Shown here piece by piece: positions 1 through 14,838 of a DNA stretch of 64,000 nt. Position numbers and translations under genes: made by a program. How positions within the stretch are numbered: the stretch's first letter is position 1; every line of letters starts with the position of its first letter. The notes below the pieces were generated by a model. The model made no database searches, was not told where the DNA came from, and worked only from the letters and a program-made list of their open reading frames with translations. Source of the DNA: Bacteroidaceae bacterium (GTDB lineage Bacteria > Bacteroidota > Bacteroidia > Bacteroidales > Bacteroidaceae); NCBI GenBank assembly GCA_017427065.1, contig JAFRTL010000010.1, forward strand, positions 62,001 through 126,000. Reading direction: 5' to 3'.

Positions 1-1157
1 AAACCATCCACACCTCTATCTACCCAACCCTCTGCAGCGCTGAGCATGGCCTTGTAAGTGGCATTGCTGCGCACATCACTTACCTTACCATAATCCAAGT
101 CGGGCATGTCAGTGTAGAACATGGCATGATAGTACCAGGCATCCATGAAGTCGAACTTGATGTCGGAAGCAGTGTTGCTATCGAGTTTGAAGGCCTTTCC
201 TAAGGTTACCTTCGAGGAAGAAGAGGATGCGCCGAACTTGGTGCCGCTGTCCCAAGAGGTATTGGAGGTTCGGATCAGAAAACCCCATGTGGTATTCAGG
301 TTTACAGTGAGTTCATAGGTATCGTTGCCCTTATCGTAAAACTTCTTGCAAACGCCGTCTCCGTAATAGAGGTATTTGGCATTCGAAGTGCTTTGATCAG
401 GGTTGTCAGAATCGGCCTTGCTGGCTTTCGTCACAGTGATGGTCTTATCTTTCCAGTTCAAAACAAACTTATAGATGCCACTCACAGCCTCAGCATTCCC
501 CACGGTATACCATTCTCCACTGTTATAACCATCTACGGCAGGGAACTTGCCTGCCTTGATGTCACCTTCTGGATCCTGTGAGAAGGTGTAGTAGCTGCGG
601 TAAGGACTATTTACGTCGCTAGAGGCACTCTTGAACCACTCATGATTCTTGCCCGTATGGTTCATTACATAGTCCAGATAGATCTTAATGCCAGCAGCAT
701 GTGCTTTGCTCACCAGATTGTCGAAATCGGCCTCTGTGCCATACTGCGGATTCACTTTGGTATAATCCGTCACATCGTAGCCATGATAGCTCATGGCAGG
801 ATGAATCGGTGAAAGCCAAAGCGCGCTCACACCGAGGCTCTTCAGATAATCCAACTTAGAGGTGATGCCATTAAAGTCGCCAATACCATTTCCATCACTG
901 TCGGCAAATGAATATACCAACAGCTGATACGTGATATCAGCCCGTGTCTGTCCGTCCCAAGCATCAGGCTGGGCAGTCACTGCTGTCCAATCCGCAGTAG
1001 GTGTAGGGGTTGGAGTTGGTGTGGGCGTTGGAGTCGGTGTAGGCGTAGGTTCTGGTGTAGGACCATCATCGCCACCACAGGAGGTCATCACAAGCACAGT
1101 GGTGAGGCAAGCCATTGCCAGCAGCCACATATTCTGGAATATACTCTTCGCTTTCAT
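1..1157 (-). CDS. SusG-like GH13 alpha-amylase lipoprotein, C-terminal part beyond left edge
   Basis: Outer-surface alpha-glucan hydrolase; the first 385 residues are visible and the gene runs off the left edge. It starts with a lipoprotein signal whose lipobox ends at Cys27, then an acidic patch and a (Pro-Thr)9 linker at residues 37-54. The GH13 barrel follows: catalytic-core region I is DYVMNH (162-167), and the sequence leaves the window at GVDGF, the start of region II, whose nucleophile Asp lies outside. About 210 residues separate regions I and II, far more than in plain GH13 enzymes. This indicates an inserted module at about 190-345, as in B. thetaiotaomicron SusG, which carries CBM58 there. 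The start at 1157 is the only ATG before the signal peptide. It follows SusF in the same direction but is separated from it by the peptide cassette. Starch specificity is inferred from family and neighbours. Confidence 0.9.
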   Translation of the reverse strand, partial: MKAKSIFQNMWLLAMACLTTVLVMTSCGGDDGPTPEPTPTPTPTPTPTPTPTPTADWTAVTAQPDAWDGQTRADITYQLLVYSFADSDGNGIGDFNGITSKLDYLKSLGVSALWLSPIHPAMSYHGYDVTDYTKVNPQYGTEADFDNLVSKAHAAGIKIYLDYVMNHTGKNHEWFKSASSDVNSPYRSYYTFSQDPEGDIKAGKFPAVDGYNSGEWYTVGNAEAVSGIYKFVLNWKDKTITVTKASKADSDNPDQSTSNAKYLYYGDGVCKKFYDKGNDTYELTVNLNTTWGFLIRTSNTSWDSGTKFGASSSSSKVTLGKAFKLDSNTASDIKFDFMDAWYYHAMFYTDMPDLDYGKVSDVRSNATYKAMLSAAEGWVDRGVDG

Positions 1158-1184
1158 ATCCTTAAAGTTTACATTATCTGAGGG

Positions 1185-1385: not shown

Positions 1386-1547
1386 TTATAACGGTAAAAA
1401 TAAATAAACCACAACTGCAATAACAAATAATACCATAGCTATGATGCTGATACCATGTCTTACCCAAAAAGGAGGTTCGGAACTGATGATGTTCCTTACT
1501 TTCTCACTTCGTAATTCTATTTTTGACAATTGTCCTTCCATATTCAT
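1386..1547 (-). CDS. 53-aa membrane stub resembling the N-terminus of a HlyD-type adaptor
   Basis: Small protein encoded 14 bases after the exporter gene. Its first part (SKIELRSEKVRNIISSEPP) and single membrane segment (about residues 31-53) look like the N-terminal anchor of Bacteroidetes HlyD/membrane-fusion proteins that accompany C39 ABC exporters. It then stops, with no periplasmic coiled-coil or barrel domain. The downstream 220 bases contain no continuation in any frame. The start at 1547 is chosen because it follows the exporter stop; an earlier in-frame ATG at 1601 would overlap the exporter by 40 bases. It could be a truncated remnant of an adaptor or a genuine minimal subunit. The family resemblance is by eye. 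Confidence 0.6.
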   Translation of the reverse strand: MNMEGQLSKIELRSEKVRNIISSEPPFWVRHGISIIAMVLFVIAVVVYLFLPL

Positions 1548-1561
1548 CTTAACTACGATTA

Positions 1562-3748
1562 TTAATTCCCTATCTCCAATTGATTCTTTACCAACTTCCA
1601 ATATGCACCTTTTCGGCCAATGAGATATTCATGATTTCCTGTTTCTATAACCTTTCCTTGTTCTATTACCACTATCTGGTCAGCGCTTTTTACCGTACTG
1701 AGTCTGTGAGCAACTACTATGACGGTTTTGCCTCGATAGAAAGAGCTGAGATTCTCCACTATTGCACGTTCGTTGTTGGCATCCAATGAGTTGGTGGCTT
1801 CGTCCAACATAATAAAGTCAGGATTCTTATAGATAGCCCTTGCTATCAAGATGCGTTGTTTCTGACCTTGGCTTAATCCTACACCATCTTGTCCTATTTT
1901 CGTGTTATATTTCAGGGGTAGCCCCATAATGAAGTCATGGATACAAGCTATTTCTGCAGCCTGACGCAGGCGGTTAATATCTATCTCCCCATCACTCACG
2001 GCAATATTCCGTGCGATGCTTTCTGAGAATATCACTCCATCTTGCATCACCACACCACACTGCCGTCTCCACCATTTCATATTATACTTACGAAGTTCAG
2101 TGTTCCCAACACTTATAATGCCATTCATTGGAGGATAGTAGCCTAGCAACAGCTTGATGAGAGTAGTTTTTCCGCTACCGCTGGTTCCCACGATAGCAGT
2201 GACTTTTCCTTCAGGAATTGTGAAAGTCACTTCTTCAAGTACCTTTTGAGGGTTGTGAGGGTTATATTTAAAATCCACCTGCTTTAGATATAAGCTCTTA
2301 TCTACTTCTTGATAAGTAATGTGTGCTTCCTTGTCTGTTTCTTCATTCTCTTTCTCGTGTATCTCATTAATGCGCTCTAAGCTAATTTTCACGTCTTGAA
2401 GTGAATAGAGGAATCCCATCAACTGTTCTATCGGAGCGTTCAGTTGTCCGATGATGTACTGCACGGCCAGCATCATGCCAAGGGTCATCTGTCCATTAAT
2501 AACAGCTGTAGCAGCAACAACGGTTATGATGATATTCTTCACTTCATTGATAAAGATACCTCCTGCCTCTTGTGTCTGTTGTAAACGCAATGACTTACCA
2601 TTCACATCAAAAAGTTCTGCTTGTATATCTTCCCACTCATATCGACGACGCATCTCACAATCTTGCAACTTTATTTCCTGCATGGAACTAATAAACTGAT
2701 AAGTTCGATTGTTATTAATGGCCTGCTTCTCAAAAAGCATGTAATCAAGTACTTTTCTGCGTTGCAGAAAAAATAATATCCACACTGCATATATGACGCT
2801 ACATGTAAGGAAGATAAAGAAAATCAGCAAATTATAATTCAATAGCACAATACCGAATACGATAAAGCTCAGGAGTGAAAATGCTACATTTATCATCTGA
2901 GTCGTCAGAAAGCGTTCTACACGATTATGATCTCCCATACGCTGAAGCAAATCCCCCAATAACTTAGTGTCAAAGAATCCCATCGGCAACTTCAATAACT
3001 TGATAAAGAAGTCAGATACCAATGATATATTGATGCGCATACCAATGTGCAACAATATCCATCGGCGTATGAAATCCACACTTGTACGGCTAATAGTCAG
3101 CATCAATTGCCCCAACAGTATCAGGTAGATTATGTTCAGCCGCTTCTGCTCAATACCAACATCCACTATAGCTTGAGTAAGGAAAGGTAATATCAACTGC
3201 AACAAGCTTCCTAATAGTGCCCCCAGTACTATCTGCCCAAAGTATCGCTTGTATTGCTTCACATAACCCATTAAGAAGCTGAATGATCGCTTTTCACCCA
3301 TTCCGTCATCATTCTTTTCATAAAAGGCAGGTGTGGGTTCCAGAAACATGGCTATGCCTTTCTCCTCATTATTTGAACAAGTACTTATCCAGTGGGAAGC
3401 AAAATCTTCTGTTCTGTAAGTCACCAGCCCTTTTCCTGGGTCTGCTACAAAGAACTTCCTGCCTTTCTTCACCCTATAAAGCACCACGAAATGGTTTTGA
3501 TTCCAATGCAGTATGCAGGGAAGTGGGGCAGCAGCAAGTTGTTCCATCGACACCCTGCCCGAGACGGTATGAAGTCCCAATCTTTCTGCCGCTTGCGAGA
3601 TGCCAAGCATAGAAACTCCTTCTGTGGTAGCAACACATAGCTCAGAGAGACTATCGGAGGAATAGTCTCTTCCGTAATGTTTGCAAATCATTTGCAAGCA
3701 TGCAATGCCACATTGCATGCTGTCATGCTGCCGTACAAGTTTAAACAT
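1562..3748 (-). CDS. C39 peptidase-containing ABC exporter (PCAT)
   Basis: Inner-membrane ATP-driven exporter that should cut double-glycine leaders and export the mature peptide. The N-terminal C39 cysteine protease shows Gln7, catalytic Cys13 (in QHDSMQCGIACL), His86 (HWNQNHFVVLY) and Asp103 (VADPGKG). A six-helix ABC transmembrane domain spans about 160-440. The C-terminal ATPase has Walker A GTSGSGKTT, signature LSQGQKQR, Walker B IMLDEATNSLD and the H-loop AHRLS. At 728 aa it is full length for the family. It begins two bases after the stop of the outer membrane receptor gene and precedes the HlyD-like stub, so one leftward operon with the precursor and maturase is likely. The two double-glycine peptides at 7459-7875 are the obvious substrates. 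Confidence 0.93.
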   Translation of the reverse strand: MFKLVRQHDSMQCGIACLQMICKHYGRDYSSDSLSELCVATTEGVSMLGISQAAERLGLHTVSGRVSMEQLAAAPLPCILHWNQNHFVVLYRVKKGRKFFVADPGKGLVTYRTEDFASHWISTCSNNEEKGIAMFLEPTPAFYEKNDDGMGEKRSFSFLMGYVKQYKRYFGQIVLGALLGSLLQLILPFLTQAIVDVGIEQKRLNIIYLILLGQLMLTISRTSVDFIRRWILLHIGMRINISLVSDFFIKLLKLPMGFFDTKLLGDLLQRMGDHNRVERFLTTQMINVAFSLLSFIVFGIVLLNYNLLIFFIFLTCSVIYAVWILFFLQRRKVLDYMLFEKQAINNNRTYQFISSMQEIKLQDCEMRRRYEWEDIQAELFDVNGKSLRLQQTQEAGGIFINEVKNIIITVVAATAVINGQMTLGMMLAVQYIIGQLNAPIEQLMGFLYSLQDVKISLERINEIHEKENEETDKEAHITYQEVDKSLYLKQVDFKYNPHNPQKVLEEVTFTIPEGKVTAIVGTSGSGKTTLIKLLLGYYPPMNGIISVGNTELRKYNMKWWRRQCGVVMQDGVIFSESIARNIAVSDGEIDINRLRQAAEIACIHDFIMGLPLKYNTKIGQDGVGLSQGQKQRILIARAIYKNPDFIMLDEATNSLDANNERAIVENLSSFYRGKTVIVVAHRLSTVKSADQIVVIEQGKVIETGNHEYLIGRKGAYWKLVKNQLEIGN

Positions 3749-3750
3749 CG

Positions 3751-6027
3751 CTACAAACTAATACCCGATTCAGTACTGTTAAGATATTTCGTTTGCCTAT
3801 TTGGTGCCCTACGCTTACGGAAGCTATAAGAAATACCTATTAAAACCTTATAGCGCCTGTCTTTACTGTCCATGAAGAATTGTGAATGATAAGTATCCTC
3901 ATCTGTATATACTCTTGACTTTAACATACCTAAGAAATAGCGCATACCCGCGTTGAGTGCCCATTGGTCATTTAGGCTGTAAGTCAGAGTAAACTCAGAT
4001 TCTGCTCCCCTACTGATGGTTTTACTGTGAATACCATATTGTTTAGGGAAATAGGAGAGATTGCCGTTCCACGACCACCTCTTCTGATAGCCATAGAAAT
4101 TCAACATATATTGGAATTGGTTTTTAGCAGACTGGTGTTCAAAGTAATTAGTTAGGTTTGCGATCGTAAGATTAATGCCACCCCATTTATAATTCTGATA
4201 ACCTGCAGTGACTTGGGCTGTCAGTCGGCTAAAATGCCCATAGTTCTCATAAGTTTGGGTGTAGATATGGCTCTGTGGGTCTGTATAACCAATGTTATTA
4301 ATCTCATCAGTTACCAACTGATAGGCCAATGATGGCATAAGGCTGAATCCTTTTTTGCTGAAGCTATAGCGCATCTGCCAGTTGTAAATGCGTTGTGGTA
4401 ACAGGTAAGGATTTCCACTCACTACTCTCAGGGAGTCTGTGGAAGTGTTATATGGATTAAGCTGTCCCACTTGTGGGGCACTATTGGTCAGACTATGCGA
4501 AAAGGTTATAGCGTGCCCACTATTAATCCGATAGCTCAGAGAAACAGATTCTACAGGACGGAAATAATTATAACGGATATTGTCTGCTTTGCGTGAAATA
4601 TAGTTCATGCCAGCAGATAGGGAATAAGAAAGATTCTTACTTAGATTTCCACTAAGCCCTGCATAGAAGTATTCGTTGGTATTTTGATGACGGAAGGTTG
4701 GATAACCAGCTTTTTCCTGCTTCAATTTGTCGTTGAGGTAAGAGAGTTCATTACCTAACTCCAATTGTTGTTTTCCAAGCGAAGTGACAAAATGGGTCTC
4801 TAATCCACCAGAATAGCGGAAATTGTCATAATCATAAAGATTGTGATACTGCCAATCAGCGTAGTTCTCTTCACGCTCTCCTTGCGTCTGGTTGCCATTG
4901 AGATTGAAACGCAAAGTATTTTCCAGATAGACATTATCCTTGAAGGTATGTCTATAATAGAGGTTATTAGAGTTGACAAAATAATTCACCTTGTCATCAT
5001 ACCAGGTGGTGAATGCTTTAGAGGCATCGGTGGCATCTTTCAACAACCCCTGTCCTGTGGAGGCATATTTGCTGGGATTGTCAATTAAAGAGGAGTTAAA
5101 TACCAAATAGTCTTTATCTGAGGCAAACCAGTCAAGGTTGAGTTGTGCATAGATGTTTTGACCATTCCATTGGCGTGTGCCTTCACTATTCTTTAGATAG
5201 CCAATGTTCTGTTGAGCACTGCTCCATTCACTGTCGTCATGATGAAAGTACCAATGCTGCCCTGTGAGGCTAAGCTGCATCTTTTGATTGCCTATGCGGT
5301 AACTGGCGCTGCTATTGCCATATAAAACAGGTAGGGAGTGGCGAGTAGAAAAATCGAATGCTTGATAAGTGGTTGGTGTTCTCTTGGTTTTGATATTCAA
5401 TAAAGCGACATATCCTGAATTAAGATAGCGTACAGAAGGAGACTCTATCACTTCCACGTCTTCCACCAAACTGGGGTCTATACTATCTATACCTCCATTG
5501 TAACGCACTCCGTTGATAAGGATGAGTGGCTTAGTACCATCAGTCATTGTGACTGTTTTATCTGTTGGATTCACCACGAGTTTTGGTATTTCCTGCAGAG
5601 CTTGGTAAGGATTCTTCATGGCTTTGGCTTGTTGTGAAAGAAAGTATGTTGTACCTGTGGCATTAGTCTGTGTCAGTTGGCTACGATCAGCAGTCACAGT
5701 GACTTCGCTAATTTGTCCTTCTGCCAAAAGTTCTAATGTATAATTACGTCTGAGGTTGCCATTGATAGAAATTTGTTGGCTGATCGTTTCGTAGCCATAG
5801 CAACTCATAGTAATGATATAGTTACCATTCTGAATGCCAGAAATGACGTATTCTCCTTTTGCGTTGCTCACAGTAGCCCCCACAAAGGTTGTGTCTTGAC
5901 GTAATTCCAATACCACCCCAACAATAGGGCTTTTACTCTCATTCCTTATGACACCATTCAGTCGATATTGAGCATATAGGTTCGCCACCAGCAAGATATA
6001 TAGTAGGAAGAAGGATAGTCTTTTCAT
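3751..6027 (-). CDS. TonB-dependent-receptor-like outer membrane protein of the peptide cluster
   Basis: 758-aa outer membrane protein with a signal peptide ending at about residue 19 (NLYA/Q). It has a carboxypeptidase-regulatory-like beta-sandwich at about 21-105 that begins YRLNGVIRNES, a plug-like domain at about 115-215 with LILINGVRYNGG, and a long beta-barrel to the C-terminus. Proteins of this kind are commonly encoded beside Bacteroidetes peptide exporters; whether they release the product, take it up or sense it is not established. It lies between the radical SAM maturase (stop at 6094) and the exporter (start at 3748) on the same strand. With the HlyD adaptor reduced to a stub, this is the only full-size envelope protein besides the exporter that could take part in crossing the outer membrane; that is an inference. 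Confidence 0.8.
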   Translation of the reverse strand: MKRLSFFLLYILLVANLYAQYRLNGVIRNESKSPIVGVVLELRQDTTFVGATVSNAKGEYVISGIQNGNYIITMSCYGYETISQQISINGNLRRNYTLELLAEGQISEVTVTADRSQLTQTNATGTTYFLSQQAKAMKNPYQALQEIPKLVVNPTDKTVTMTDGTKPLILINGVRYNGGIDSIDPSLVEDVEVIESPSVRYLNSGYVALLNIKTKRTPTTYQAFDFSTRHSLPVLYGNSSASYRIGNQKMQLSLTGQHWYFHHDDSEWSSAQQNIGYLKNSEGTRQWNGQNIYAQLNLDWFASDKDYLVFNSSLIDNPSKYASTGQGLLKDATDASKAFTTWYDDKVNYFVNSNNLYYRHTFKDNVYLENTLRFNLNGNQTQGEREENYADWQYHNLYDYDNFRYSGGLETHFVTSLGKQQLELGNELSYLNDKLKQEKAGYPTFRHQNTNEYFYAGLSGNLSKNLSYSLSAGMNYISRKADNIRYNYFRPVESVSLSYRINSGHAITFSHSLTNSAPQVGQLNPYNTSTDSLRVVSGNPYLLPQRIYNWQMRYSFSKKGFSLMPSLAYQLVTDEINNIGYTDPQSHIYTQTYENYGHFSRLTAQVTAGYQNYKWGGINLTIANLTNYFEHQSAKNQFQYMLNFYGYQKRWSWNGNLSYFPKQYGIHSKTISRGAESEFTLTYSLNDQWALNAGMRYFLGMLKSRVYTDEDTYHSQFFMDSKDRRYKVLIGISYSFRKRRAPNRQTKYLNSTESGISL

Positions 6028-6093
6028 ACTTCTAGTTTGTTATATTTTTTAGTTACAACATGACAAAGATAGTGTTTATCTAATAACAACATT

Positions 6094-7407
6094 CTATTTC
6101 TGTTGGTTTTCAAATAATTTATTATGAATGTATCGGTTGTTAAACTCAAAATACAAGTAATCATCAAGTGATATTTCCATATTTCTTTTTTGACAATAAC
6201 GCTTAACTTCATTCGGAGTTTCAAGAAGTTTTTGATTACAGGGACCCCAACAAAGCGGAAGCAGCTTACATGATTCGCATTCTTTGTTATCAAAAGTTCT
6301 TATGTTTAATCTTTTATTTAGTTTCACCTCATTCCATTGAATCTCGCCTTTAGGAATAAGTATTCCTTCTTGTAAGTCATCAGAAAAATCTCTTCCTGAA
6401 CATTTGTAAACTTTGCCATCGTATGAAATCACTGCCTGATTATTCTTACTGGCTTTGCACGAAATGCTTTTCCTATGCAGATTCATATAAGAAACAGTGA
6501 ATCCATTCCCTTGTATTAATCTGATAGTGTCTTTCAGCATTGCATTGCTATTATTATCGCTTTTAGTTTGCCATACTCTTTCTAAGTGGACACCTATTTT
6601 CCTGCGATCTATATCTGAAATATCTTCTATTAATTCTGGTATGTGTTTCAGGGTTTCATTATCATAATTAATTCTTAAATTGATATAGCATTTGTCATAA
6701 TAATCACATAACAGATGTATCATTCTAAATACCTTTTCATAGGTTGGCTCTTTAGAATCTAAGTCACGCTTTACTTTATTGTGCTTCTCTTTGTAACCAT
6801 CAATAGATATTTGAAATTTAGCTTCAAGTTCAGCGAACATTGGAATCATATCTTCAGTGATTTTTGTCGCATTTGTGACAAAGAAAAAAGATACACCTTT
6901 TTCTTTTTGCATAACAGTTTCTTTAATTTTAATAAGCAAAGGAAAAACTTCTTCTTTAAAATAAAGCAATGGCTCTCCACCAAATAACTCTACCTCAATG
7001 AACTTTATGCATTCTTGATTCAAGACATGGTTAACATGATTTAGAATAGCCTCTTGATTAGGTACTTCAAAGTGGCTGCCTTTAAGATGACTTTCAAAAC
7101 AATACCAGCAACGAAGATTGCAATCTAAAGTTGGTAATAAAGTAAGACTATAGGTCTCGTTTTCTGAAGATATTACATTTTTATACTCTTCTTCCAACAA
7201 TTGGTATTCAGAAATGCTATCATCCTCTATGATAAAGCCATTCGTTTTTAGATCTTCAATGATAGAGTTGGGAATAGATTCTATAGTATTATTAATTAAA
7301 TACTCATATACTGCTGTAGGAAGAATAGCAAATGTGTCATATCTTGTATTATAGCCAATAACATACTTTGGCAACTTTGTAAATAAATTATAGAAACTTG
7401 CTTTCAT
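6094..7407 (-). CDS. Radical SAM/SPASM peptide maturase
   Basis: Predicted to modify the neighbouring precursor peptide(s) using S-adenosylmethionine and Fe-S clusters. The start at 7407 (MKASFYNLF) is preferred to an ATG 36 bases upstream because it matches the usual beginning of this enzyme class; the product is 437 aa. Residues 1-90 look like the peptide-recognition region common in SPASM maturases. The radical SAM motif CNLRCWYC gives Cys96, Cys100 and Cys103. The C-terminal SPASM domain is complete: G-x4-C (GKVYKC), then C-x2-C-x5-C-x3-C (CESCKLLPLCWGPC) and a final Cys (RYC). The gene is markedly AT-rich. It is separated from the 12-Cys precursor by a 13-bp-arm hairpin. Likely chemistry is thioether or another cross-link at or near Cys residues, inferred from substrate composition only. 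It resembles the GG-Bacteroidales maturase group as I recall it. Confidence 0.9.
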   Translation of the reverse strand: MKASFYNLFTKLPKYVIGYNTRYDTFAILPTAVYEYLINNTIESIPNSIIEDLKTNGFIIEDDSISEYQLLEEEYKNVISSENETYSLTLLPTLDCNLRCWYCFESHLKGSHFEVPNQEAILNHVNHVLNQECIKFIEVELFGGEPLLYFKEEVFPLLIKIKETVMQKEKGVSFFFVTNATKITEDMIPMFAELEAKFQISIDGYKEKHNKVKRDLDSKEPTYEKVFRMIHLLCDYYDKCYINLRINYDNETLKHIPELIEDISDIDRRKIGVHLERVWQTKSDNNSNAMLKDTIRLIQGNGFTVSYMNLHRKSISCKASKNNQAVISYDGKVYKCSGRDFSDDLQEGILIPKGEIQWNEVKLNKRLNIRTFDNKECESCKLLPLCWGPCNQKLLETPNEVKRYCQKRNMEISLDDYLYFEFNNRYIHNKLFENQQK

Positions 7408-7422
7408 TGTTATTAAGTTTAA

Positions 7423-7449
7423 GAGAGTGTGCTTCAGAAGCACACTCTC
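7423..7449 (-). terminator. Intercistronic hairpin between precursor and maturase
   Basis: Perfect 13-bp inverted repeat: arms 7423-7435 and 7437-7449 around one central base, folding as a 10-11 bp stem with a small loop. It begins 10 bases after the 12-Cys precursor stop and ends 16 bases before the maturase ATG. No T-run follows on the minus strand, so it is more likely an attenuator or RNA stabiliser that keeps precursor mRNA in excess over maturase mRNA. Function is inferred. Confidence 0.6.
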
Positions 7450-7458
7450 AATAATTAA

Positions 7459-7704
7459 TCATTCAAATGGTGGAGGAGTGATTCCACATTCACAACCACA
7501 ACCACAGCCAGTGCCAGTTCCATTACCGCATCCGCAACCACAACCACAGCCCTTTCCTAATGAGCATTCGCATCCACAACCGCATCCTGCGCCTGTGCCA
7601 TCCATGGTCGCTCCACCAGTAATGAACAATAGTTCATCGTCTTTAAGTTCAATCTCATCCAAAGGGAGAGAGACTCTTTCTAAAGTTACAAATTTTTTAC
7701 TCAT
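7459..7704 (-). CDS. RiPP precursor, double-glycine leader and 12-Cys core
   Basis: 81-aa precursor. The leader (1-31) is acidic and hydrophobic and ends DELLFITGG, a classic double-glycine site for a C39 protease. The predicted 50-aa core (32-81) has 12 cysteines, all alternating with Gly or Glu, in three blocks: CGCGCEC (41-47), CGCGCGC (53-59) and CGCGCEC (67-73). The blocks are linked by SLGKG and GNGTGTG, and the tail is GITPPPFE. The core coding DNA is far more GC-rich than its surroundings. The gene directly precedes the SPASM maturase, and the exporter with matching protease is downstream. Leader style fits the GG-Bacteroidales natural-product precursors; the threefold C-x-C-x-C-x-C core is not one I recognise. 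Product activity is unknown. Confidence 0.88.
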   Translation of the reverse strand: MSKKFVTLERVSLPLDEIELKDDELLFITGGATMDGTGAGCGCGCECSLGKGCGCGCGCGNGTGTGCGCGCECGITPPPFE

Positions 7705-7758
7705 AATAGAATTTATTAAAGATTAAACATCGTGAGTATTTTCCACATAAATTGTCAT

Positions 7759-7875
7759 TTATGGTTCAAAAGGTTGTTTGCCTTCATCAATCCAAATCCA
7801 ACCATGTTCAGTCCATACCCACTTGCCACCATAAACAATCAGCATTTCCCCAAAAGTTAAAATTTCAATTTTCAT
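7759..7875 (-). CDS. Second putative RiPP precursor, Trp-rich, 38 aa
   Basis: Short ORF first in the leftward peptide operon, 54 bases upstream of the 12-Cys precursor. The leader MKIEILTFGEMLIVYGG ends with E-M-L-I-V-Y-G-G, closely paralleling E-L-L-F-I-T-G-G of the neighbour, so the same C39 protease could cut it after Gly17. The 21-residue core is Lys followed by two copies of a heptapeptide, WVWTEHG and WIWIDEG, then KQPFEP. Four Trp occur as two W-x-W pairs (19/21 and 26/28). The tail recalls the PPPFE end of the other core. It is supported by position, leader match and internal repeat. It is too short for statistical coding support, and no homologue comes to mind. Confidence 0.68.
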   Translation of the reverse strand: MKIEILTFGEMLIVYGGKWVWTEHGWIWIDEGKQPFEP

Positions 7876-7932
7876 GATTTCTATATTTATTGTTTATTTG
7901 GCGAAATTTACGATGAAAAATCGAAACTATTT

Positions 7933-7960
7933 GTAATCAAAACGTAATCTTTTGGTAATC
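7933..7960. promoter_or_regulatory. Three GTAATC sites phased at 11 bp (putative OmpR-type operator)
   Basis: GTAATC occurs at 7933-7938, 7944-7949 and 7955-7960, i.e. exactly one helical turn apart, in the divergent intergenic region between the peptide operon and the kinase gene. OmpR/PhoB-family regulators bind direct repeats with this spacing, and the regulator encoded at 9409-10059 belongs to that family. The sites lie 58-85 bases upstream of the first peptide ATG, just above a near-consensus -7 element on the minus strand (TAAATTTC, 7903-7910), a position fitting activation. Confidence 0.6.
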
Positions 7961-7990
7961 AAATTAATTATTTAAATTACGCCTGACATC

Positions 7991-8019
7991 TATTTGTAGA
8001 TTTTATCTATATTTGTAGA
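7991..8019 (+). promoter_or_regulatory. Kinase promoter with a 10-bp direct repeat
   Basis: TATATTTG at 8008-8015 matches the -7 consensus TAnnTTTG and would start transcription about 15 bases before the kinase ATG at 8037. TATTTGTAGA is repeated at 7991-8000 and 8010-8019, 19 bp apart, so the -7 element overlaps the second copy. The repeat may be a regulator site or simply promoter-derived. No clear -33 element is seen. Confidence 0.4.
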
Positions 8020-8036
8020 AATAATTATAATGAGAA

Positions 8037-9401
8037 ATGAGAAAAGCTATTGTTATATCTATATTTGCCACATTTGTGTTACTTTTTCTACAATTTTTGT
8101 GGATAGGCAATGCTTATCATAATTACACTCTGCGAATGGTGAAAACATTAGAAGACATTACCTCTGACGGCATTCAGAAAGAACTATCAACTCGCTCATA
8201 TTCTCCTCCTAAAGATCCCAATAAACCTAAGTTTATTTATAAAAAAGCCAGCGAAATGACACCAGAAGAGAGGGAAAGTTTAAAGGGAGATACTTTAGAC
8301 ATGGTTTCTTTAAAAAAGAACAATATTGGTATGAATATGACTGATTTGATAAACCAATTAGAGCAAGATAATTTCATAGCAGATGGCAACTTCCTTAACC
8401 TTGAAAAGTTGGACAGCATCTTTCAAGTATTGCTAAGTGAAGCAGAGCTGAACACCAGATATCGCATATACTTCTACAATCGTGATACATTGGAGATGGA
8501 CAATAGGGGTAATCTGCCTAAGACAAAGAGCAAGGTCTATGAGACGAGGCTCTTCCCCATCGGACTGAAAGCTACACAGTTCATACAAGTGAAGACAGAC
8601 TTGCCGTTCTCCACTTTCTTGCGCGAGATGACTGAAATATTGGGCTCCTCCATATTAATGGTACTGATAGTGGCTGGCTGCGTGGTATGGCTGTTCATCA
8701 CCATTAAGCATAAGGACAAGCTATTCAAACAACGTGAGGCAAGCGTGAATGGCACGGTACATGATCTGAAGGCTCCACTGAACAGCATTATTTTACTTAT
8801 GGGCCTCCTGAAACAGAAACTACCCGATGAAGACAGTAAGTCCCTGACGGAAGTCACACTAAAGCAAAGTAAGAACATGGTAAATGACATTGAGGCTCTG
8901 CTGCTTACAGCACGCCATGACCGTCAACAAGTAATGCTGAAGAAGGAACTCACGGACTTAGTGGCATTGACACAACAAGCCACAGAAAGCATCTCGCCAC
9001 AATATACAGCCAAGACGCATCAATTGGACATCGAAGCAGAAGCTCCACAGCTGATGGTAAATGGAGACCGCATGTATCTGACAAATGTTATTCGCAATCT
9101 GATAGAGAATGCGTTGAAGTATTCGGACGATGGCGTAAAGGTCTGCATCAGAATAAGGCAAGAAGGCCAGATGGCAGTAGTGGAGGTAGAAGACAACGGT
9201 TGGGGTATCCCACAAAAGTACCAGAAAAAGATTTTCAATCAGTTCTTCCAGGTGCCTCGTGGAGAAGGGAGACATCAGCGTGGCTATGGTGTGGGCTTGG
9301 CATTCTCTAAGTATGTGATGGAGGCTCATGGAGGTGTGATAAACGTAAGGAGTGAGGAAGGAGAAGGCAGTACCTTCACCTGTATATTCCCCATAAACTG
9401 A
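8037..9401 (+). CDS. Sensor histidine kinase
   Basis: 454-aa membrane kinase. A first membrane segment (about 5-23), a periplasmic sensor region (about 28-200) of no recognised type and a second membrane segment (about 203-222) are followed directly by the kinase core without an obvious HAMP domain. The H-box VHDLKAPLNS places the phosphorylated His at 242. The ATPase domain has the N-box NLIEN (354-358), G1 DNGWGIP (386-392) and G2 GYGVGLA (416-422). The response regulator starts 7 bases after its stop. It is transcribed divergently from the peptide operon, and the shared intergenic region carries phased operator-like repeats, so control of the peptide cluster, perhaps in response to the peptide or to envelope stress, is the simplest inference. 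Confidence 0.92.
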   Translation: MRKAIVISIFATFVLLFLQFLWIGNAYHNYTLRMVKTLEDITSDGIQKELSTRSYSPPKDPNKPKFIYKKASEMTPEERESLKGDTLDMVSLKKNNIGMNMTDLINQLEQDNFIADGNFLNLEKLDSIFQVLLSEAELNTRYRIYFYNRDTLEMDNRGNLPKTKSKVYETRLFPIGLKATQFIQVKTDLPFSTFLREMTEILGSSILMVLIVAGCVVWLFITIKHKDKLFKQREASVNGTVHDLKAPLNSIILLMGLLKQKLPDEDSKSLTEVTLKQSKNMVNDIEALLLTARHDRQQVMLKKELTDLVALTQQATESISPQYTAKTHQLDIEAEAPQLMVNGDRMYLTNVIRNLIENALKYSDDGVKVCIRIRQEGQMAVVEVEDNGWGIPQKYQKKIFNQFFQVPRGEGRHQRGYGVGLAFSKYVMEAHGGVINVRSEEGEGSTFTCIFPIN

Positions 9402-9408
9402 ATAGGAT

Positions 9409-10059
9409 ATGATAAAAGTTTTATTGATAGATGATGATGTGGTATTCAGTCAAATAGCGACGACTGTCTTGAAGGAGCATGGGATGGATGTGCATTATCA
9501 AAATGCACTGACAGCGGTTACTGATGTAGTGAAAGCCTATCAACCAAGTGTCATCTTACTTGATATAGAGATAGGTAACGATGATGGCATCAATATCATT
9601 CCACAAATACGGGCAGCCTCATCTGTAGTACCTATTATTGTGATTTCCTCACATACGGAACTCGCAGAGGTAGAACGCGCATTAAATCAAGGTGCTGTGA
9701 ACTATCTGAAAAAGCCTTTCGATATGGAAGAAATGGCAGCCTTCGTCAGACGCTATGCAGTGCCACATGCATCCTTCATTTCGATAGGTACCCTGAAGCT
9801 GAATCTTGAAAGCAAGGAACTAAGCAAGGGGGAAATGCGACTAAAAAAACTCACCCCCTTAGAATTCGAACTGCTTACACGTCTCTACCTTGACATGGGG
9901 AATGTGGTAAGTAAGGAAAAGTTGCTAAAGCACGAAAATAGAGACTTAGACATACACACCTTATATAATTACATTCGTAAACTCAATAACTTACTTCAAG
10001 CAGACAAGAAACTTGCAATCTACAAAGAAGGAAATGGATATGTGCTTAAAAAACTATAG
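9409..10059 (+). CDS. OmpR-family response regulator
   Basis: 216-aa DNA-binding partner of the kinase just upstream. The receiver domain shows the acidic triad DDD at 8-10, phospho-acceptor Asp52 (ILLDIEIG) and the conserved Lys in YLKKPFD near 104. A winged-helix output domain follows from about 125 (LTPLEFELLTRL). Such domains bind tandem direct repeats spaced by 11 bp, as found at 7933-7960. No gene lies between 10060 and 10262; that gap holds only AT-rich sequence and the terminator of the facing sus operon. Confidence 0.92.
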   Translation: MIKVLLIDDDVVFSQIATTVLKEHGMDVHYQNALTAVTDVVKAYQPSVILLDIEIGNDDGINIIPQIRAASSVVPIIVISSHTELAEVERALNQGAVNYLKKPFDMEEMAAFVRRYAVPHASFISIGTLKLNLESKELSKGEMRLKKLTPLEFELLTRLYLDMGNVVSKEKLLKHENRDLDIHTLYNYIRKLNNLLQADKKLAIYKEGNGYVLKKL

Positions 10060-10262: not shown

Positions 10263-12038
10263 TTACTTCTTCTCAATAGAGTACATGGCCATACCTGTGA
10301 TGCCTTCGAAATAGAAGCGGATGAGGTATGTACCTGCAGCCACAGGGATATTTGGACCATCTTGCCAGAGGTTGTCTGGCTCACCACCCCAGTTCATGCT
10401 CCAATCATGGTTGGCGCGGAACTTGAATTCACCATCGTTAAGAGTAGTGGTTACCTCGAAGCAACCTTCTTCTGGATTGTATGTGAGGTCGGTATCGGTA
10501 TCCCAAGCGCCGTTGGCAGAGCCGATGATGCTCACAACGAACGGCGTAGTCTCAAAGGTCATCTCGGTGAGGTCAACCTGAATCTTATAGAATCCAGGCT
10601 CAACAGCAGGCATGTTAGGACCACCAGTATCTACCAGCTTATTATCGCCAGCATATTCCCAGTCGCCATCCCAATTATCCTCGTTTGGCTTGAACTTATA
10701 CTCACCATCCAGCCAATAGTAACCCACGTACTTACCATCATAGTTGGCAGAACGCAACGGATGAGATTCACTCCATCCACCTTCGTTACCAATCTCGTAG
10801 ATGTACTCAGCAAATGCCATTGGAGTGAACTCCCAAGTACCAGCAAGCACATTGATGGCGAGGCGGTAATAGGTAGCACCATCAGAAGCTGGCTGGTTGA
10901 ATGCACCACCATTGCCAATCATATATTCACCCTTTAGAGAGGTGTCACCATCGTTGACAGCACAGATAAGGTTATCCCAGAAAGCGCCACTCTCATAGGC
11001 TGTTCCCGGAGCGATCTTAAACCAGTTGTCCACGCGGTTACCGTCACCATCCACAGGAGCAGGGATTACGGTGTAGAAGATTGGATCGATGTAAGCACTC
11101 TCACCACTACTGTTGTAGAGCGGATAACTCTGATCGGAATCGCTCCAGCCATTGAGCTGACCTACATAGAAGTACTCGTCGCAGAGGTCTTCTACATAAG
11201 GCGTAAACTCATAGGTACCAGACATCATGTCGAGCTTGAGGACATACATCTTGGCTTCATCGCTGGCTGGCAAGCACCATGCCTGAGCATCCTTGGTCAC
11301 GAAACGACCCTGCAGTGCGCTCTCACCATCGGTAGCAGCACCCAGCAAACCACCCCAGAAGTCTTCAGACTCATAGGCAGATTCTGGAGCAATCTTGAAC
11401 CAGTTGTCAGCACGGCTGCCATCCTCATTGGTAGGACCAGGAACCACACCCACGAAGATAGGATCTTCATAGACATCGGCACCGCTGTTTCTGAGAGGAT
11501 AGCTCATGTCTGAATCACTCCAACCATTGGAAGCACCTACATAATAGTAATTCTCTTCAATCACAGGAGCAGCAGCGATGGCTTTCAGTTCTATGGTACC
11601 ACCCGTTGCTACCACAGCCTGACCACCATCCATATAGTCGGCAGTAAGCTCAGCACTGAAGGTACGGGTATCAGGACGCAAGCCATACTCCGCATTGATA
11701 ACCTCCTGTAAATCGGCTACAGCCACCTTACCGGTAGGACCAGCATTAATGGTATAAGTATTGGAAGAACCTTCGGGAGTCAATACCAACTGCAAGTTTG
11801 CCAAATTTACGCCATAAGGCAAGCCCTTTGGCAAAGATATGTCAAGTGCAGCAATAGAATCTCCCGTTGCTTCGCCCAGATTAACGGTACCTAAAGGCTT
11901 AGCAGTAAAACCTGCAACCTTAATGGCCTCTACCTGATCCCAGCCTTGTGGAGCAGCTACGTCTTCATTAAAATCCTCGTTGCAGGCACCCATGAAGGTC
12001 AGGGCGCCCAGCAACATATATAATGATAACTTTTTCAT
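10263..12038 (-). CDS. SusF-like outer membrane glycan-binding lipoprotein with four modules
   Basis: 591-aa surface lipoprotein (lipobox ending at Cys19, MGACNED). An N-terminal SusE/F-type Ig-like domain (about 40-165) is followed by four modules starting with the Y-x-x-G-x-x-x-G-W type motif. Two are near-duplicates (about 173-290 and 291-410, each with NGWSDSD and NWFKIAP) and two are shorter (about 411-500 and 501-591, with EYKFKPNEDNW and EFKFRANHDW). B. thetaiotaomicron SusF has three starch-binding modules, so this is an expanded version. It is last in the SusC-D-E-F operon, 24 bases after SusE, and is followed by a terminator. Binding of alpha-glucan is inferred from the family and the SusG-like amylase beyond the cassette. 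Confidence 0.85.
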   Translation of the reverse strand: MKKLSLYMLLGALTFMGACNEDFNEDVAAPQGWDQVEAIKVAGFTAKPLGTVNLGEATGDSIAALDISLPKGLPYGVNLANLQLVLTPEGSSNTYTINAGPTGKVAVADLQEVINAEYGLRPDTRTFSAELTADYMDGGQAVVATGGTIELKAIAAAPVIEENYYYVGASNGWSDSDMSYPLRNSGADVYEDPIFVGVVPGPTNEDGSRADNWFKIAPESAYESEDFWGGLLGAATDGESALQGRFVTKDAQAWCLPASDEAKMYVLKLDMMSGTYEFTPYVEDLCDEYFYVGQLNGWSDSDQSYPLYNSSGESAYIDPIFYTVIPAPVDGDGNRVDNWFKIAPGTAYESGAFWDNLICAVNDGDTSLKGEYMIGNGGAFNQPASDGATYYRLAINVLAGTWEFTPMAFAEYIYEIGNEGGWSESHPLRSANYDGKYVGYYWLDGEYKFKPNEDNWDGDWEYAGDNKLVDTGGPNMPAVEPGFYKIQVDLTEMTFETTPFVVSIIGSANGAWDTDTDLTYNPEEGCFEVTTTLNDGEFKFRANHDWSMNWGGEPDNLWQDGPNIPVAAGTYLIRFYFEGITGMAMYSIEKK

Positions 12039-12062
12039 AATTCTATCAGTGTATTAGATTAG

Positions 12063-13217
12063 TTACTCAATTCTACCAGTATCGTTCGTGAAGTTCAGGT
12101 AGAGCTTCTGTCCCTGATTACCAGCTACACGCTCCTGATCACCACCATCGGCACGGTACTTAATCTTACCATCGAAGATCATGAACTCTGACTTCCACCA
12201 GTCGTATCCTGGAACCTTCACGTATGCACGCACACCCTGTGGGTCGCTGGCAGGTGAAACGCCATCTACCGTAGCTACGAAGGCAGGAGAAACAAACTCA
12301 CCATCCTGAGTGGTAGGTGTAGTGAACTTACCTGCAGGTGCCAGTTCATCCCAACCACCGAGGGTATTACCAATCAGCCATACGACACCTTCCTCGAAGT
12401 CAACCTCGAAGGTAATGTCGCGACCAGCCACTGCGGTCTTCACTACCAACAGGTACCAACCAGGATTACCTACGCCGATGTTACCACCGTCATCGTAAAC
12501 ATTGGCATTAGCATTATCTACAATGGTTACCTGGCTGAAGCCCTTCTCACCACCGTTCCAAGAGGTAGCGGTATTGATCTTGAAGCCACCATCGAGCCAA
12601 ACCATGCGCCACATCACGTTTGGAGCACCATTCACCACAACCATCTCTGGAGCAGTGTCCCAACTCCATCCATTGAAACTGCCAATGACATAAACATGCT
12701 CTGGCAACTCTACTGGAGGTAATGCATAGTGCAGTTTCACATGAGGCAGGGTAATCACATTAGAAATGATGTCACCACTCTTAGCCTGAGCACCTGAAGC
12801 ATTAGGCAGGTAGGCGCGAAGGCGGAGATAGATAGGAATATCCAATGGGAACTGATCGCCATCGTAGCCAGCCTCCATAGCCATGGTTGTAGCAGCAACG
12901 GCCAGTTCTGATACATCTACATTCATCAAAGCCGTAGAATATTGGGTGGTCAGCTCCGTGAAGTTGCTGAAGCTCTGAGAAAGCGACACCTGCACAGCAT
13001 ACATGGTAGCAGCCGTATAACCATAGTTAGGCTGCGTGCAGGTAAGTTGCAAGGTGGTGGAGTTCTCCAAATCATAGGTGCCATTGACGAATGCTGGTGT
13101 ATTGAGCATGAACACCGATGGCTCCTGATATACAGGATTGGAATCACGGTCGCTGCTACAAGCAGTGGCAAGTACCAGTCCTGCGAATAATGAAGCTAAT
13201 ATATGTAACTTTTTCAT
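12063..13217 (-). CDS. SusE-like outer membrane glycan-binding lipoprotein
   Basis: 384-aa lipoprotein (lipobox LATAC, Cys20). The N-terminal SusE domain (about 35-165) is followed by two carbohydrate-binding-like modules beginning VYVIGSFNGW and VWLIGNTLGGW. It would sit on the cell surface with SusD and SusF and hold glycan near the SusC channel. It is encoded 46 bases after SusD; this gap contains a heptamer repeat array that overlaps the SusD stop codon. Confidence 0.85.
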   Translation of the reverse strand: MKKLHILASLFAGLVLATACSSDRDSNPVYQEPSVFMLNTPAFVNGTYDLENSTTLQLTCTQPNYGYTAATMYAVQVSLSQSFSNFTELTTQYSTALMNVDVSELAVAATTMAMEAGYDGDQFPLDIPIYLRLRAYLPNASGAQAKSGDIISNVITLPHVKLHYALPPVELPEHVYVIGSFNGWSWDTAPEMVVVNGAPNVMWRMVWLDGGFKINTATSWNGGEKGFSQVTIVDNANANVYDDGGNIGVGNPGWYLLVVKTAVAGRDITFEVDFEEGVVWLIGNTLGGWDELAPAGKFTTPTTQDGEFVSPAFVATVDGVSPASDPQGVRAYVKVPGYDWWKSEFMIFDGKIKYRADGGDQERVAGNQGQKLYLNFTNDTGRIE

Positions 13218-13233
13218 AATGCTTTCTTTATAT

Positions 13234-13268
13234 AATTGTCAATTATGAATTGTCAATTGTAAATTAAT
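13234..13268. repeat. Heptamer repeat array overlapping the SusD stop codon
   Basis: Five tandem 7-mers: AATTGTC, AATTATG, AATTGTC, AATTGTA, AATTAAT. The TAA stop of SusD lies inside the array. It belongs to the dispersed 7-bp repeat family seen elsewhere in the window. Confidence 0.75.
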
Positions 13269-14838
13269 AACCAGGGTTCTGTACCAGGTTAGAGTTGGCC
13301 ACGATGTCCTTGGTAGGCAAGCCGAATACATTGCGCTGGGCACTGAAATTGGAACCATTGCGGGCACCGCCCTTCCATTCCCAAACATAGTCGGAATTAC
13401 CACCAAAACGACCAAAGCGAACCAAATCCATACGGCGGCGGCCCTCGAACATGAACTCACGTGCCCACTCATCACAGATGTCATCCAGTGAGTAAACGCC
13501 CTGCTTAGAAGCAGAAGCATGTGCACGGTCTTTCAGAGCATCCACAGCTACCTTAGCCTCAGCGGTGTTACCCAGACGGGTCTGTGCCTCTGCATAAGTC
13601 AGATAAGCCTCAGCAGCACGCAGGAAAGGAACATCGGTATCCACGAACTTAGAGTCGTGCGGATTGGCACCATTAGAATAGCTGTTGGTAAACTTACCTA
13701 CAGAGAAACCATCGGTGAAATTAGCAGTCTCCTCAACACTGAGGTTACGGTCGATGCTGAAGAACATGGCACGATCGTCACCAGCGGCTGCGATCATACC
13801 AGCCACATCCAGACCCGTAGGAGGCTCGCTGTTAGGGAAGAATTTCTCTACCAACTGCTTGCGTGCACGGTTACCTGCCCAAGACTCGCTGGTGCCATGA
13901 TCACCCATATCGTCCTTGTTAGTAGAAGCGATGAGGAACAAAGCGCCACCATAGTTCTGGGTAGCGATACCATCTTGCAGGATAGGCAGGATAATCTCAT
14001 TCTGAGCACCATTGCTGTTGTTGTCACCCATGAACAGATAGCTGAAGTTAGGAGTCAACGTGTAAGCAGAATCCATCACCTTCTTGGCATACTCGGCAGC
14101 CTTTGCCCACTGAGGAGTACCAGTATAAACCTGTGCATTCAGGTAGAGGCGTGAAAGGAGCAACCAAGCAGCTGCCTTATCAGCACGTCCGTAAGTATTA
14201 CCCTTTGGCTCTGCCATATCGTTGACACAGTCGGACAACTCACTCTCAATAAAGCTGAACACCTCTGCACGACTGGCCTGTGGTGCATTCTCAGAAGAAA
14301 CGGTAGTCACGAAAGGAACATTGCCAAAGAAGTCGATGGCATAATAATAGAAGAGAGCACGCAGGAAACGTACTTCTGCACGCATCTTCACCGTCTCGCT
14401 ATCAGTATCTTCGGCTGTCTGTGCCAAGAAAGAGTTGGCCATTGTGATACCGAAAAGCAAGCGATAGTACTCGCAAGTAATCATACCATGAGAAGCATCC
14501 CAAGTATTGAAGTTGTACTCAGGGATACCAGGGTCACCCCAGCTACAGATAGCTTCATCAGTCGTCAGCTCATTCATGTTCCAGATCTGACGGAAGAAAT
14601 CAGAAGTACCTTCATCGATGTCGGCGATATCCTGATCGCCTGCAGGACCATTCTGACCCGTAAGTGCCATGTTGCCATAAATCTTATTGAACACAGCATC
14701 ACGGTCGAACTCCATAGAAGTACTCTTATCAATGGTGGGATCTACATCCAGATCGCCCACGCATGAAGTCATTCCCAATGTCAGGGAAAGCGCTGCCACA
14801 GGCAGCAGTGTCTTCGTATATTTAGTTAGAATATTCAT
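13264..14838 (-). CDS. susD: SusD/RagB-family glycan-binding lipoprotein
   Basis: 524-aa surface lipoprotein, the lid of the SusC channel. The signal ends at Cys26 (GMTSCVGDLDVDP). The TPR-like alpha-helical fold typical of SusD is shown by segments such as EVRFLRALFYYYAIDFFG and the C-terminal EFMFEGRRRMDLVRFG, both diagnostic for the family. It starts 21 bases after the SusC stop and forms the obligate partner pair. The C-terminal codons run into a heptamer array. Confidence 0.95.
   Translation of the reverse strand: MNILTKYTKTLLPVAALSLTLGMTSCVGDLDVDPTIDKSTSMEFDRDAVFNKIYGNMALTGQNGPAGDQDIADIDEGTSDFFRQIWNMNELTTDEAICSWGDPGIPEYNFNTWDASHGMITCEYYRLLFGITMANSFLAQTAEDTDSETVKMRAEVRFLRALFYYYAIDFFGNVPFVTTVSSENAPQASRAEVFSFIESELSDCVNDMAEPKGNTYGRADKAAAWLLLSRLYLNAQVYTGTPQWAKAAEYAKKVMDSAYTLTPNFSYLFMGDNNSNGAQNEIILPILQDGIATQNYGGALFLIASTNKDDMGDHGTSESWAGNRARKQLVEKFFPNSEPPTGLDVAGMIAAAGDDRAMFFSIDRNLSVEETANFTDGFSVGKFTNSYSNGANPHDSKFVDTDVPFLRAAEAYLTYAEAQTRLGNTAEAKVAVDALKDRAHASASKQGVYSLDDICDEWAREFMFEGRRRMDLVRFGRFGGNSDYVWEWKGGARNGSNFSAQRNVFGLPTKDIVANSNLVQNPGY

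Follow-up and report, generated by a model that had tools for sequence, protein, structure and literature searches.

A double-glycine W-x-W peptide and a divergent kinase/regulator pair as the probable switch of a one-product RiPP operon in Bacteroidales

The 64,000-nucleotide stretch analysed here (the window: positions 62,001 to 126,000, forward strand, of contig JAFRTL010000010.1 from the Bacteroidaceae bacterium assembly GCA_017427065.1) carries a gene cluster for a ribosomally synthesized and post-translationally modified peptide (RiPP), with a sensor histidine kinase (HK) and a response regulator (RR) on the opposite strand. We propose that a short double-glycine peptide with paired W-x-W motifs (WxW), exported by a C39-peptidase transporter and folding as a hairpin, probably acts as an autoinducer and, together with the HK and an OmpR-type RR, controls an operon making one RiPP product, a Cys-rich peptide with C-x-C motifs (CxC). 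The argument is built on the parts of the cluster and their conservation, the linkage of the WxW peptide to its kinase in related genomes, an operator-like repeat and the register of Trp residues, all read from sequence.

Each part listed in a first-pass annotation of the window, namely the two precursors, the maturase, a receptor-like protein, the exporter, a stub and the kinase/regulator pair, was found at the position given in Table 1. The order of transcription on the minus strand is WxW precursor, Cys-rich precursor, radical SAM (rSAM)/SPASM maturase, outer-membrane protein (OMP), C39 exporter and HlyD stub; the HK and RR genes lie on the plus strand and diverge from this operon. The WxW precursor consists of the leader MKIEILTFGEMLIVYGG and the core KWVWTEHGWIWIDEGKQPFEP. 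The Cys-rich precursor carries exactly three blocks (CGCGCEC, CGCGCGC and CGCGCEC), and its core after the GG has 50 aa with 12 Cys; at 18.4 bits it stays under the TIGR04149 cut-off of 25. The maturase has the CxxxCxxC motif (CNLRCWYC at residue 96) and further Cys residues at 317-405, in a region that we take to be the SPASM domain, as would suit a ranthipeptide-like rSAM/SPASM system. Judged by profile scores it resembles CefB, TIGR04463 and PapB but falls far under their NCBIfam cut-offs (131.7 against 600, 125.8 against 525 and 97.1 against 340 bits, respectively). Residues Q7, C13, H86 and D103 and the Walker A and B motifs are all present in the exporter. The view that the RiPP genes here come with a two-component switch of their own is supported by a relative, genome G006 (locus L026), in which the order WxW, Cys-rich precursor, SPASM maturase, OMP and C39 exporter is preserved beside a divergent HK/RR pair, with identities to the window of 33% (WxW), 38% (RR), 48% (HK), 50% (OMP), 57% (maturase) and 65% (exporter). 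The Cys-rich precursor of G006 is visible as an open reading frame (ORF) and gave no BLAST match. Because G006 keeps the same gene order, the array is more than chance.

A profile of the sensor domain of the window kinase was run on 158 genomes of the genus and gave 31 long matches (E ≤ 6.4e-37), leaving out G076:C34, a 32nd long match with an in-frame stop, and weaker partial matches. Among 393 evenly drawn genomes of the order, own genome included, only 6 had sensor matches at E ≤ 1e-12. A double-glycine WxW peptide stands beside 10 of the 31 kinases (window, G006, G077, G083, G086, G166, G014, G155a, G065 and G029a), and a WxW core with a membrane anchor beside four others (G062, G019, G189 and G168a). 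Eleven of these 14 peptides are encoded divergently, roughly 80-235 bp from the kinase gene; G065 and G029a have the regulator gene in between, and the G168a peptide is 981 bp distant. The nine other aligned double-glycine peptides are 30-48% identical to that of the window, with the Trp spacing fixed. G023 (region L059:10170-12491), with an HK 94% and an RR 96% identical to those of the window, holds a truncated WxW remnant and, beside the kinase, none of the CxC, SPASM and C39 genes of the window's cluster; its WxW leader stops after YWI and continues into an outer-membrane-protein ORF. On the HK tree, in which 4 of 58 kinases could not be placed, the kinases with membrane-anchored WxW form one clade (support 100/95; three of four placed, the fourth unplaced), and those of the window, G023, G006 and G077 form another (100/100). 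The earlier suggestion that the kinase senses the peptide is supported as to linkage across loci of the genus, while sensing itself is a step that we infer from sequence.

The pairing also emerged from searches that began with the peptide. Every one of the 11 strongest matches (E ≤ 3.1e-15) of a WxW profile run on the 158 genomes fell in a locus with a kinase of this family, one being a second G065 copy 6.6 kb from the kinase; ten of the 11 had built the profile, and the informative part is that no strong match fell elsewhere. A hidden Markov model (HMM) made from 5 WxW peptides recovered those of G166, G014, G065 (two) and G029 out of sample, at 4.6e-14 to 3.4e-7 in a search space of 8743 short ORFs from fetched loci. 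One weak match (G086:C20:6718, E 6.3e-4, ..YGG-AYKWVLVNGEWIMV) lies 131 bp from a divergent, more distantly related kinase with a broken ORF; it was fetched by the peptide match alone, and the kinase was found afterwards. This second WxW-like double-glycine peptide (L140:1453-1599) is 50 kb from that genome's WxW-type kinase.

A regular expression for leader-type ORFs, strict enough to miss membrane-anchored and more distant peptides and composed after many of the peptides had been inspected, flagged a divergent ORF no more than 600 bp away for 22 of 57 related HKs and for 1 of 218 further genes in these loci, the sole positive among the latter being a second WxW copy. The positives divide into 9 of 33 family kinases (8 with WxW) and 13 of 24 more distant ones; 19 of these 24 were fetched blind (9 positive) and 5 were already loaded (4 positive), some of the 5 having been noticed through HMM matches of their peptides. 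Controls gave 2 positives in 11400 shuffles and 0 of 20 classical HKs of other types, hand-picked for short reading frames from four genomes among the matches listed. Near-duplicates (G163b/G064, G026/G158, G060/G188 and G014/G155a) were counted separately, and G043, with 64 bp upstream only, was dropped. The WxW peptide matched no Pfam or NCBIfam family. In view of conservation in relatives and of the shuffle, same-locus and other-HK controls, a chance ORF was rejected.

Fifty-eight bp upstream of the WxW start codon, GATTAC occurs three times at exactly 11-bp spacing, oriented toward the WxW operon. The pattern (GATTAY-N5)x3 was scored in 33 intergenic regions with 500 shuffles each; five of these (G029a, G065, G155a, G168a and G023) were tagged as lacking WxW despite a peptide or remnant, and a fixed 170 bp was measured for them. 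The window scored 18 of 18, and p ≤ 0.004 was reached in nine regions (window, G023, G166, G086, G083, G019, G163, G190 and G082), in all of which the repeat reads toward the divergent gene and 11 bp is the optimum among periods of 8-15; the signal was weaker at G080 (p 0.028). In the 2.5-Mb genome (83% complete) the exact triple repeat is present a single time, and its one other match has 2 mismatches. Its uniqueness and its place between the divergent genes would fit control of the WxW operon by a local OmpR-type regulator dedicated to it.

The spacing of Trp residues recalls designed tryptophan zippers. W-x-W-x4-W-x-W, found in the window and G006, is the spacing of trpzip2 (SWTWENGKWTWK), and W-x-W-x6-W-x-W, found in G065 (twice) and G029a, that of trpzip4 (GEWTWDDATKTWTWTE), as given in excerpts of PMC2705519 and PMC2427033. 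The trpzip2 spacing recurs in G077, G083, G086, G166, G014, G019, G189 and G168a, where one or two of the Trp places hold Tyr, Leu or Glu, and the core of G062 has a five-residue loop. By a hand count that includes the second leader G, GKWVWDEETHSWVWVE of G065 matches the listed variant TrpZip9 at 10 of 16 positions. An AlphaFold2 model of the WxW precursor, from a 10-row alignment, has a leader helix at 8-15 and strands at 17-22 and 25-30, with a pLDDT of 84 in block 21-30; the strand positions, rather than model coordinates, imply the pairs W19-W28 and W21-W26. At the level of sequence, the two cross-strand Trp pairs of a tryptophan zipper are in register. The Trp register alone is weak evidence for a hairpin; the model predicts one for the core at moderate confidence. 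Unlike designed zippers, the WxW peptides occur in nature, carry a leader and are linked genetically to a kinase, and their fold is a modelled one. The sensor of the kinase was modelled at a mean pLDDT of 80.4, with long helices at 2-54 and 191-236 around a mixed alpha/beta part; these helices are taken as bearing transmembrane (TM) segments, with ~170 aa between them. H242 lies within HDLKAP.

The HlyD-like protein reads 53 aa from its ATG, or 71 aa in an alternative frame that starts at an upstream TTG, and comprises the N-terminus and TM helix without the full periplasmic adaptor domain. Stubs of 50-70 aa occur in relatives L024, L027, L029 and L031, and 'mini' forms of 153-166 aa in L032, L041, L044, L060 and L102. 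Among the 130 HlyD N-terminal matches listed in the 158 genomes, the open frame has at most 100 codons in 15 (one at a contig edge, one with a TGA), 101-250 in 26 and more in 89, these lengths being upper bounds (at G033 the frame is 181, and the ATG ORF 68 aa). As stubs recur in relatives and across genomes of the genus, a truncation accident was rejected, and the stub appears to be a recurring type, not a broken gene.

In the mechanism that we favour, the operon would yield one modified peptide (CxC) and one signal (WxW), and the C39 exporter would cleave both double-glycine leaders. Since the HlyD partner is only a cytoplasmic/TM stub, both peptides would probably end up in the periplasm, the expected site of the kinase domain; the CxC product would leave through the outer-membrane barrel. 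The WxW core, folded as a tryptophan-zipper beta-hairpin, would bind the divergent kinase at its periplasmic domain, and the OmpR-type regulator, once phosphorylated, would bind (GATTAY-N5)x3 and activate the operon. The resulting positive feedback would be set by export, by cell density, or by both.

A possible but less probable alternative confines the WxW peptide to its own cell, as a periplasmic hairpin that reports exporter function to the kinase, or as an anchored direct regulator in the manner of MgrB, which regulates PhoQ directly. The reduction of HlyD to a stub, with the periplasmic release that it suggests, would suit this, as would the four loci in which the core sits on a K-rich and hydrophobic anchor with no double glycine. 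No C39 exporter or close maturase relative was found beside these four (L065 spans only 4.6 kb); at L106 a distant rSAM ORF, 23% identical over part, lies ~9.5 kb from the anchored peptide. The double-glycine leader is nonetheless kept in 10 loci, and external release is compatible with their sequence. The alternative departs from the autoinducer reading in range only. By eye, the anchored WxW gene of G189 adjoins serpin-like genes.

The genes behind the WxW/HK/RR module change from locus to locus. CxC and SPASM genes follow in the window and G006; two CC-type precursors with a 24% identical SPASM protein in G077; Cys-rich peptides with a 31-32% identical SPASM protein in G086 and G083; a poly-Thr double-glycine peptide in G166 (L102); and CCxCxC-type clusters, with other genes LanC-like or glycosyltransferase-like by eye, in G065, G029 and G014. 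In the 19.5 kb examined at G166, no maturase match and no CxxxCxxC-type ORF was found. The double-glycine peptide there has two poly-Thr runs (L102, also L141:1396-1569) and is accompanied by a C39 exporter and a mini-HlyD.

The maturase, in turn, occurs apart from the module. Of 148 genomes, own genome counted, 18 have a match to it at E ≤ 1e-30, and relatives on four named contigs are labelled Muribaculaceae (three) and Bacteroidales (one). Nine relatives have at least 47% identity, and a CxC precursor lies directly upstream in five (G006, L022, L023, L025 and G076). G033 has a Cys-rich precursor, no Cys-rich precursor was found at L024, G056 is cut by a contig edge, and the ninth is the partial G029:C37. 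Conservation of precursor with maturase, on which the first-pass annotation had staked its proposal, therefore holds for the CxC peptide (5 of 9, plus one Cys-rich). At L022 a second Cys-rich double-glycine precursor, with the C-terminus WKWV, lies farther upstream (L022:4977-5294). No WxW or kinase gene was found in L022, L024, G076 or G033, all of which have 6 kb or more of upstream flank; among relatives at this identity they were seen only in G006, the others being short-flanked or unexamined. Product genes and WxW/kinase genes thus appear separable.

The earlier idea that the two peptides form a two-peptide product of one maturase is not supported by these comparisons: WxW accompanies the kinase where the maturase clade is absent, and the four maturase loci just named are without WxW and kinase. 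With WxW found without maturase and maturase without WxW, the peptides probably divide into a product (CxC) and a signal (WxW). We also think it unlikely that the cluster makes WxW as a further RiPP product, an antimicrobial partner for CxC that is either Trp-crosslinked or unmodified and is produced by the SPASM enzyme or by the exporter alone, with the kinase sensing damage or something else. WxW does share its operon and double-glycine exporter with CxC, and Trp cross-linking rSAM enzymes are known. A title on an isoleucine-tryptophan crosslink stands in the reference list of PMC10352776. Against this, WxW persists at G166 with no rSAM found, membrane-anchored WxW occurs with no exporter found, maturase loci exist without WxW, and the WxW gene adjoins the kinase with the operator-like repeat between them. 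Least probable of all, and very improbable, is a kinase that responds to mature CxC or to the target of CxC, the WxW ORF being a minor or non-coding neighbour: CxC presumably shares the transporter, and its locus includes the kinase pair, but the cargo peptide changes completely among loci with same-family kinases while WxW stays, with the identity and fixed Trp spacing given above.

Several observations weigh against the proposed autoinducer. Sixteen of the 31 family kinases have no WxW peptide within ~1 kb (the distance that defines absence here), so the sensor can evidently sense something other than WxW, and double-glycine WxW requires 6 changes on the HK tree, so that the link of peptide and kinase is not strictly vertical. 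Decayed WxW fragments occur at G006:C83 with no kinase within the 3 kb examined; such decayed copies, with in-frame stops or a split frame (L107:6344-6469 and L139/L142; G029 and G006:C83), lie in CCxCxC-type clusters. The operator motif was chosen, and its weights set by eye, after sequence inspection; the closest full relative, G006, reaches only p 0.024 and G062 p 0.048, the shuffle test detected no operator at G077, G014 and G189 (p 0.21-0.69), and one is present at three kinases without a WxW peptide (G163, G190 and G082). The Trp register is not unique either, as 25 short ORFs out of 11480 fit a relaxed pattern, including 9 judged unrelated on reading. The mean pLDDT of the WxW model is only 69, from 10 alignment rows, and Foldseek found no match to it in the PDB at E ≤ 1e-3; against the same database the sensor model had no solved relative (best E 0.05). 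The HlyD stub was not found in L026 (G006) or L028. Secretion, ligand binding and induction by WxW are steps that we infer, and a peptide released externally would need to re-cross the outer membrane.

The WxW system may be part of something larger. More distant kinases have divergent double-glycine peptides with the plan strand, N/D/E-G turn, strand, such as VKHYVCINGEYFYYEE (L100), EVVLVGWKEVNGVWVAVYRDE (L146) and RVVYEIININGKDILIVKNIPE (L160); one was present at 9 of 19 blind-fetched related kinases and at 0 of 20 other kinases. Among the best 30 loci of an order-wide search, 28 had identifiable HKs, and 4 of the 28 a leader-type divergent peptide, two of these four by a relaxed pattern only and two seen before. 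Ten HK-linked wider peptides had leader-level or chance-level matches only in NCBIfam and Pfam, three of them above cut-off (TIGR01847 for L149 and L100, Pfam ComC for L100). The second wider-class kinase of the window's own genome (L218) is without such a peptide, which counts against the proposed autoinducer. It is tentatively proposed, and quite possible, that Bacteroidales have their own class of divergent double-glycine beta-hairpin peptides, each sensed by a dedicated kinase with a periplasmic domain; the same judgement covers jointly the WxW clade as natural tryptophan zippers, sometimes anchored, and cargoes exchangeable behind the switch. By eye, some wider-class peptides adjoin rSAM or HlyD genes.

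Double-glycine pheromones with an HK/RR pair are known from Gram-positive bacteria (ComC-ComDE, BlpC-BlpHR and plantaricin-type bacteriocin induction), where the norm is an HPK10-type polytopic kinase with a LytTR regulator. Dirix et al. in 2004 reportedly described double-glycine signal peptides in Gram-negatives. The window holds all three components, a short double-glycine precursor beside an HK and an RR, and shares with the ComC/BlpC type the double-glycine peptide, C39 exporter, adjacent HK/RR, repeats at the promoter and, as proposed here, control of a bacteriocin or RiPP operon; the leader of L100, from the wider class, passes the Pfam ComC cut-off of 20.4 with 21.9 bits. In contrast to those systems, the host is Gram-negative, the peptide a predicted Trp-zipper-like hairpin with membrane-anchored variants, the repeat an 11-bp triple, the sensor two long terminal helices with a mixed domain, and the regulator OmpR-type. 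Since kinase and regulator types differ, the switch falls outside the ComDE/BlpHR family, although it would work in a similar way.

Within Bacteroidales, Fernandez-Cantos et al. (2023; PMC10352776) describe RiPP clusters with rSAM, double-glycine precursors, peptidase-containing ABC transporter (PCAT) and OMP. Excerpts of that paper place an HK/RR pair in biosynthetic gene cluster (BGC) 5 and suggest that mature peptides could act in signalling; for BGC6-9 they report PCAT and OMP with no membrane-fusion protein (MFP) found, and ask about the export route, to which the HlyD stub is a candidate answer. The same excerpts describe no WxW or hairpin peptide, specific peptide-kinase pairing or operator. 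Bacteroidetocins are likewise double-glycine leader peptides of Bacteroidales (PMC6671954, in part), with PCAT in their clusters (PMC10352776), but they are antibacterial, class-IIa-like and hold disulfides; in the main text of PMC6671954, as represented here, histidine kinase, two-component, response regulator and pheromone occur 0 times. Bacteroidetes hold all but two Nis-pathway proteins (PMC8895600, in part), and Bacteroides clusters combine rSAM, C39, HlyD and double-glycine genes (PMC4573289, in part). Excerpts of PMC13289728 and PMC8939145 contain no Bacteroidota peptide-kinase pairing. Neither a WxW/kinase system nor a natural tryptophan zipper was found in the open-access PMC literature, a scope that excludes most subscription journals.

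If the autoinducer reading is correct, Bacteroidales would gain a peptide-pheromone-like switch comparable to the Gram-positive ones, silent RiPP clusters could be turned on directly by adding a short synthetic peptide, and designed tryptophan zippers would have natural counterparts. The stubs suggest that exporters thought to be MFP-less may use a 50-70-aa protein overlooked by annotation. The prediction is cheap to test, as the peptides have 21 residues and both the kinases and the operator are named.

Table 1. Positions of the cluster parts, of the membrane-anchored WxW loci and of the wider-class peptides
Feature	Locus	Position	Strand	Remark
WxW double-glycine precursor, 38 aa	window	7759..7875	-	leader ...MLIVYGG, Trp-zipper-like core; proposed exported signal
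Cys-rich double-glycine precursor, three CxCxCxC blocks	window	7459..7704	-	proposed RiPP product
rSAM/SPASM peptide maturase	window	6094..7407	-	
Outer-membrane beta-barrel protein, CarboxypepD_reg and plug domains (PF14905)	window	3751..6027	-	proposed outer-membrane step
C39-peptidase ABC exporter (PCAT)	window	1562..3748	-	catalytic residues intact
HlyD N-terminus-only protein, 53 aa	window	1386..1547	-	cytoplasmic segment and one TM helix (inspection)
Sensor histidine kinase	window	8037..9401	+	
OmpR-type response regulator	window	9409..10059	+	receiver and winged helix
GATTAC x3 at 11-bp spacing	window	7933..7960	-	proposed response-regulator operator, between WxW and kinase genes
Membrane-anchored WxW	L062	4066-4170		K-rich and hydrophobic segment, no double glycine
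Membrane-anchored WxW	L065	54-188		as L062
Membrane-anchored WxW	L106	4656-4769		as L062
Membrane-anchored WxW	L118	8343-8447		as L062
Wider-class peptide	L145	2748-2876		
Wider-class peptide	L146	1587-1703		
Wider-class peptide	L148	2749-2874		
Wider-class peptide	L149	2561-2671		
Wider-class peptide	L151	3132-3248		
Wider-class peptide	L156	3167-3301		
Wider-class peptide	L160	2252-2374		
Wider-class peptide	L161	3025-3162		
Wider-class peptide	L095	2327-2464		
Wider-class peptide	L096	2304-2435		
Wider-class peptide	L100	1109-1225		

Genes of starch-utilisation type, named by reading translations, flank the cluster in the window (1-1160 and 10263-14838), with an amylase-like fragment to its left and SusE/F- and SusD-like proteins to its right.

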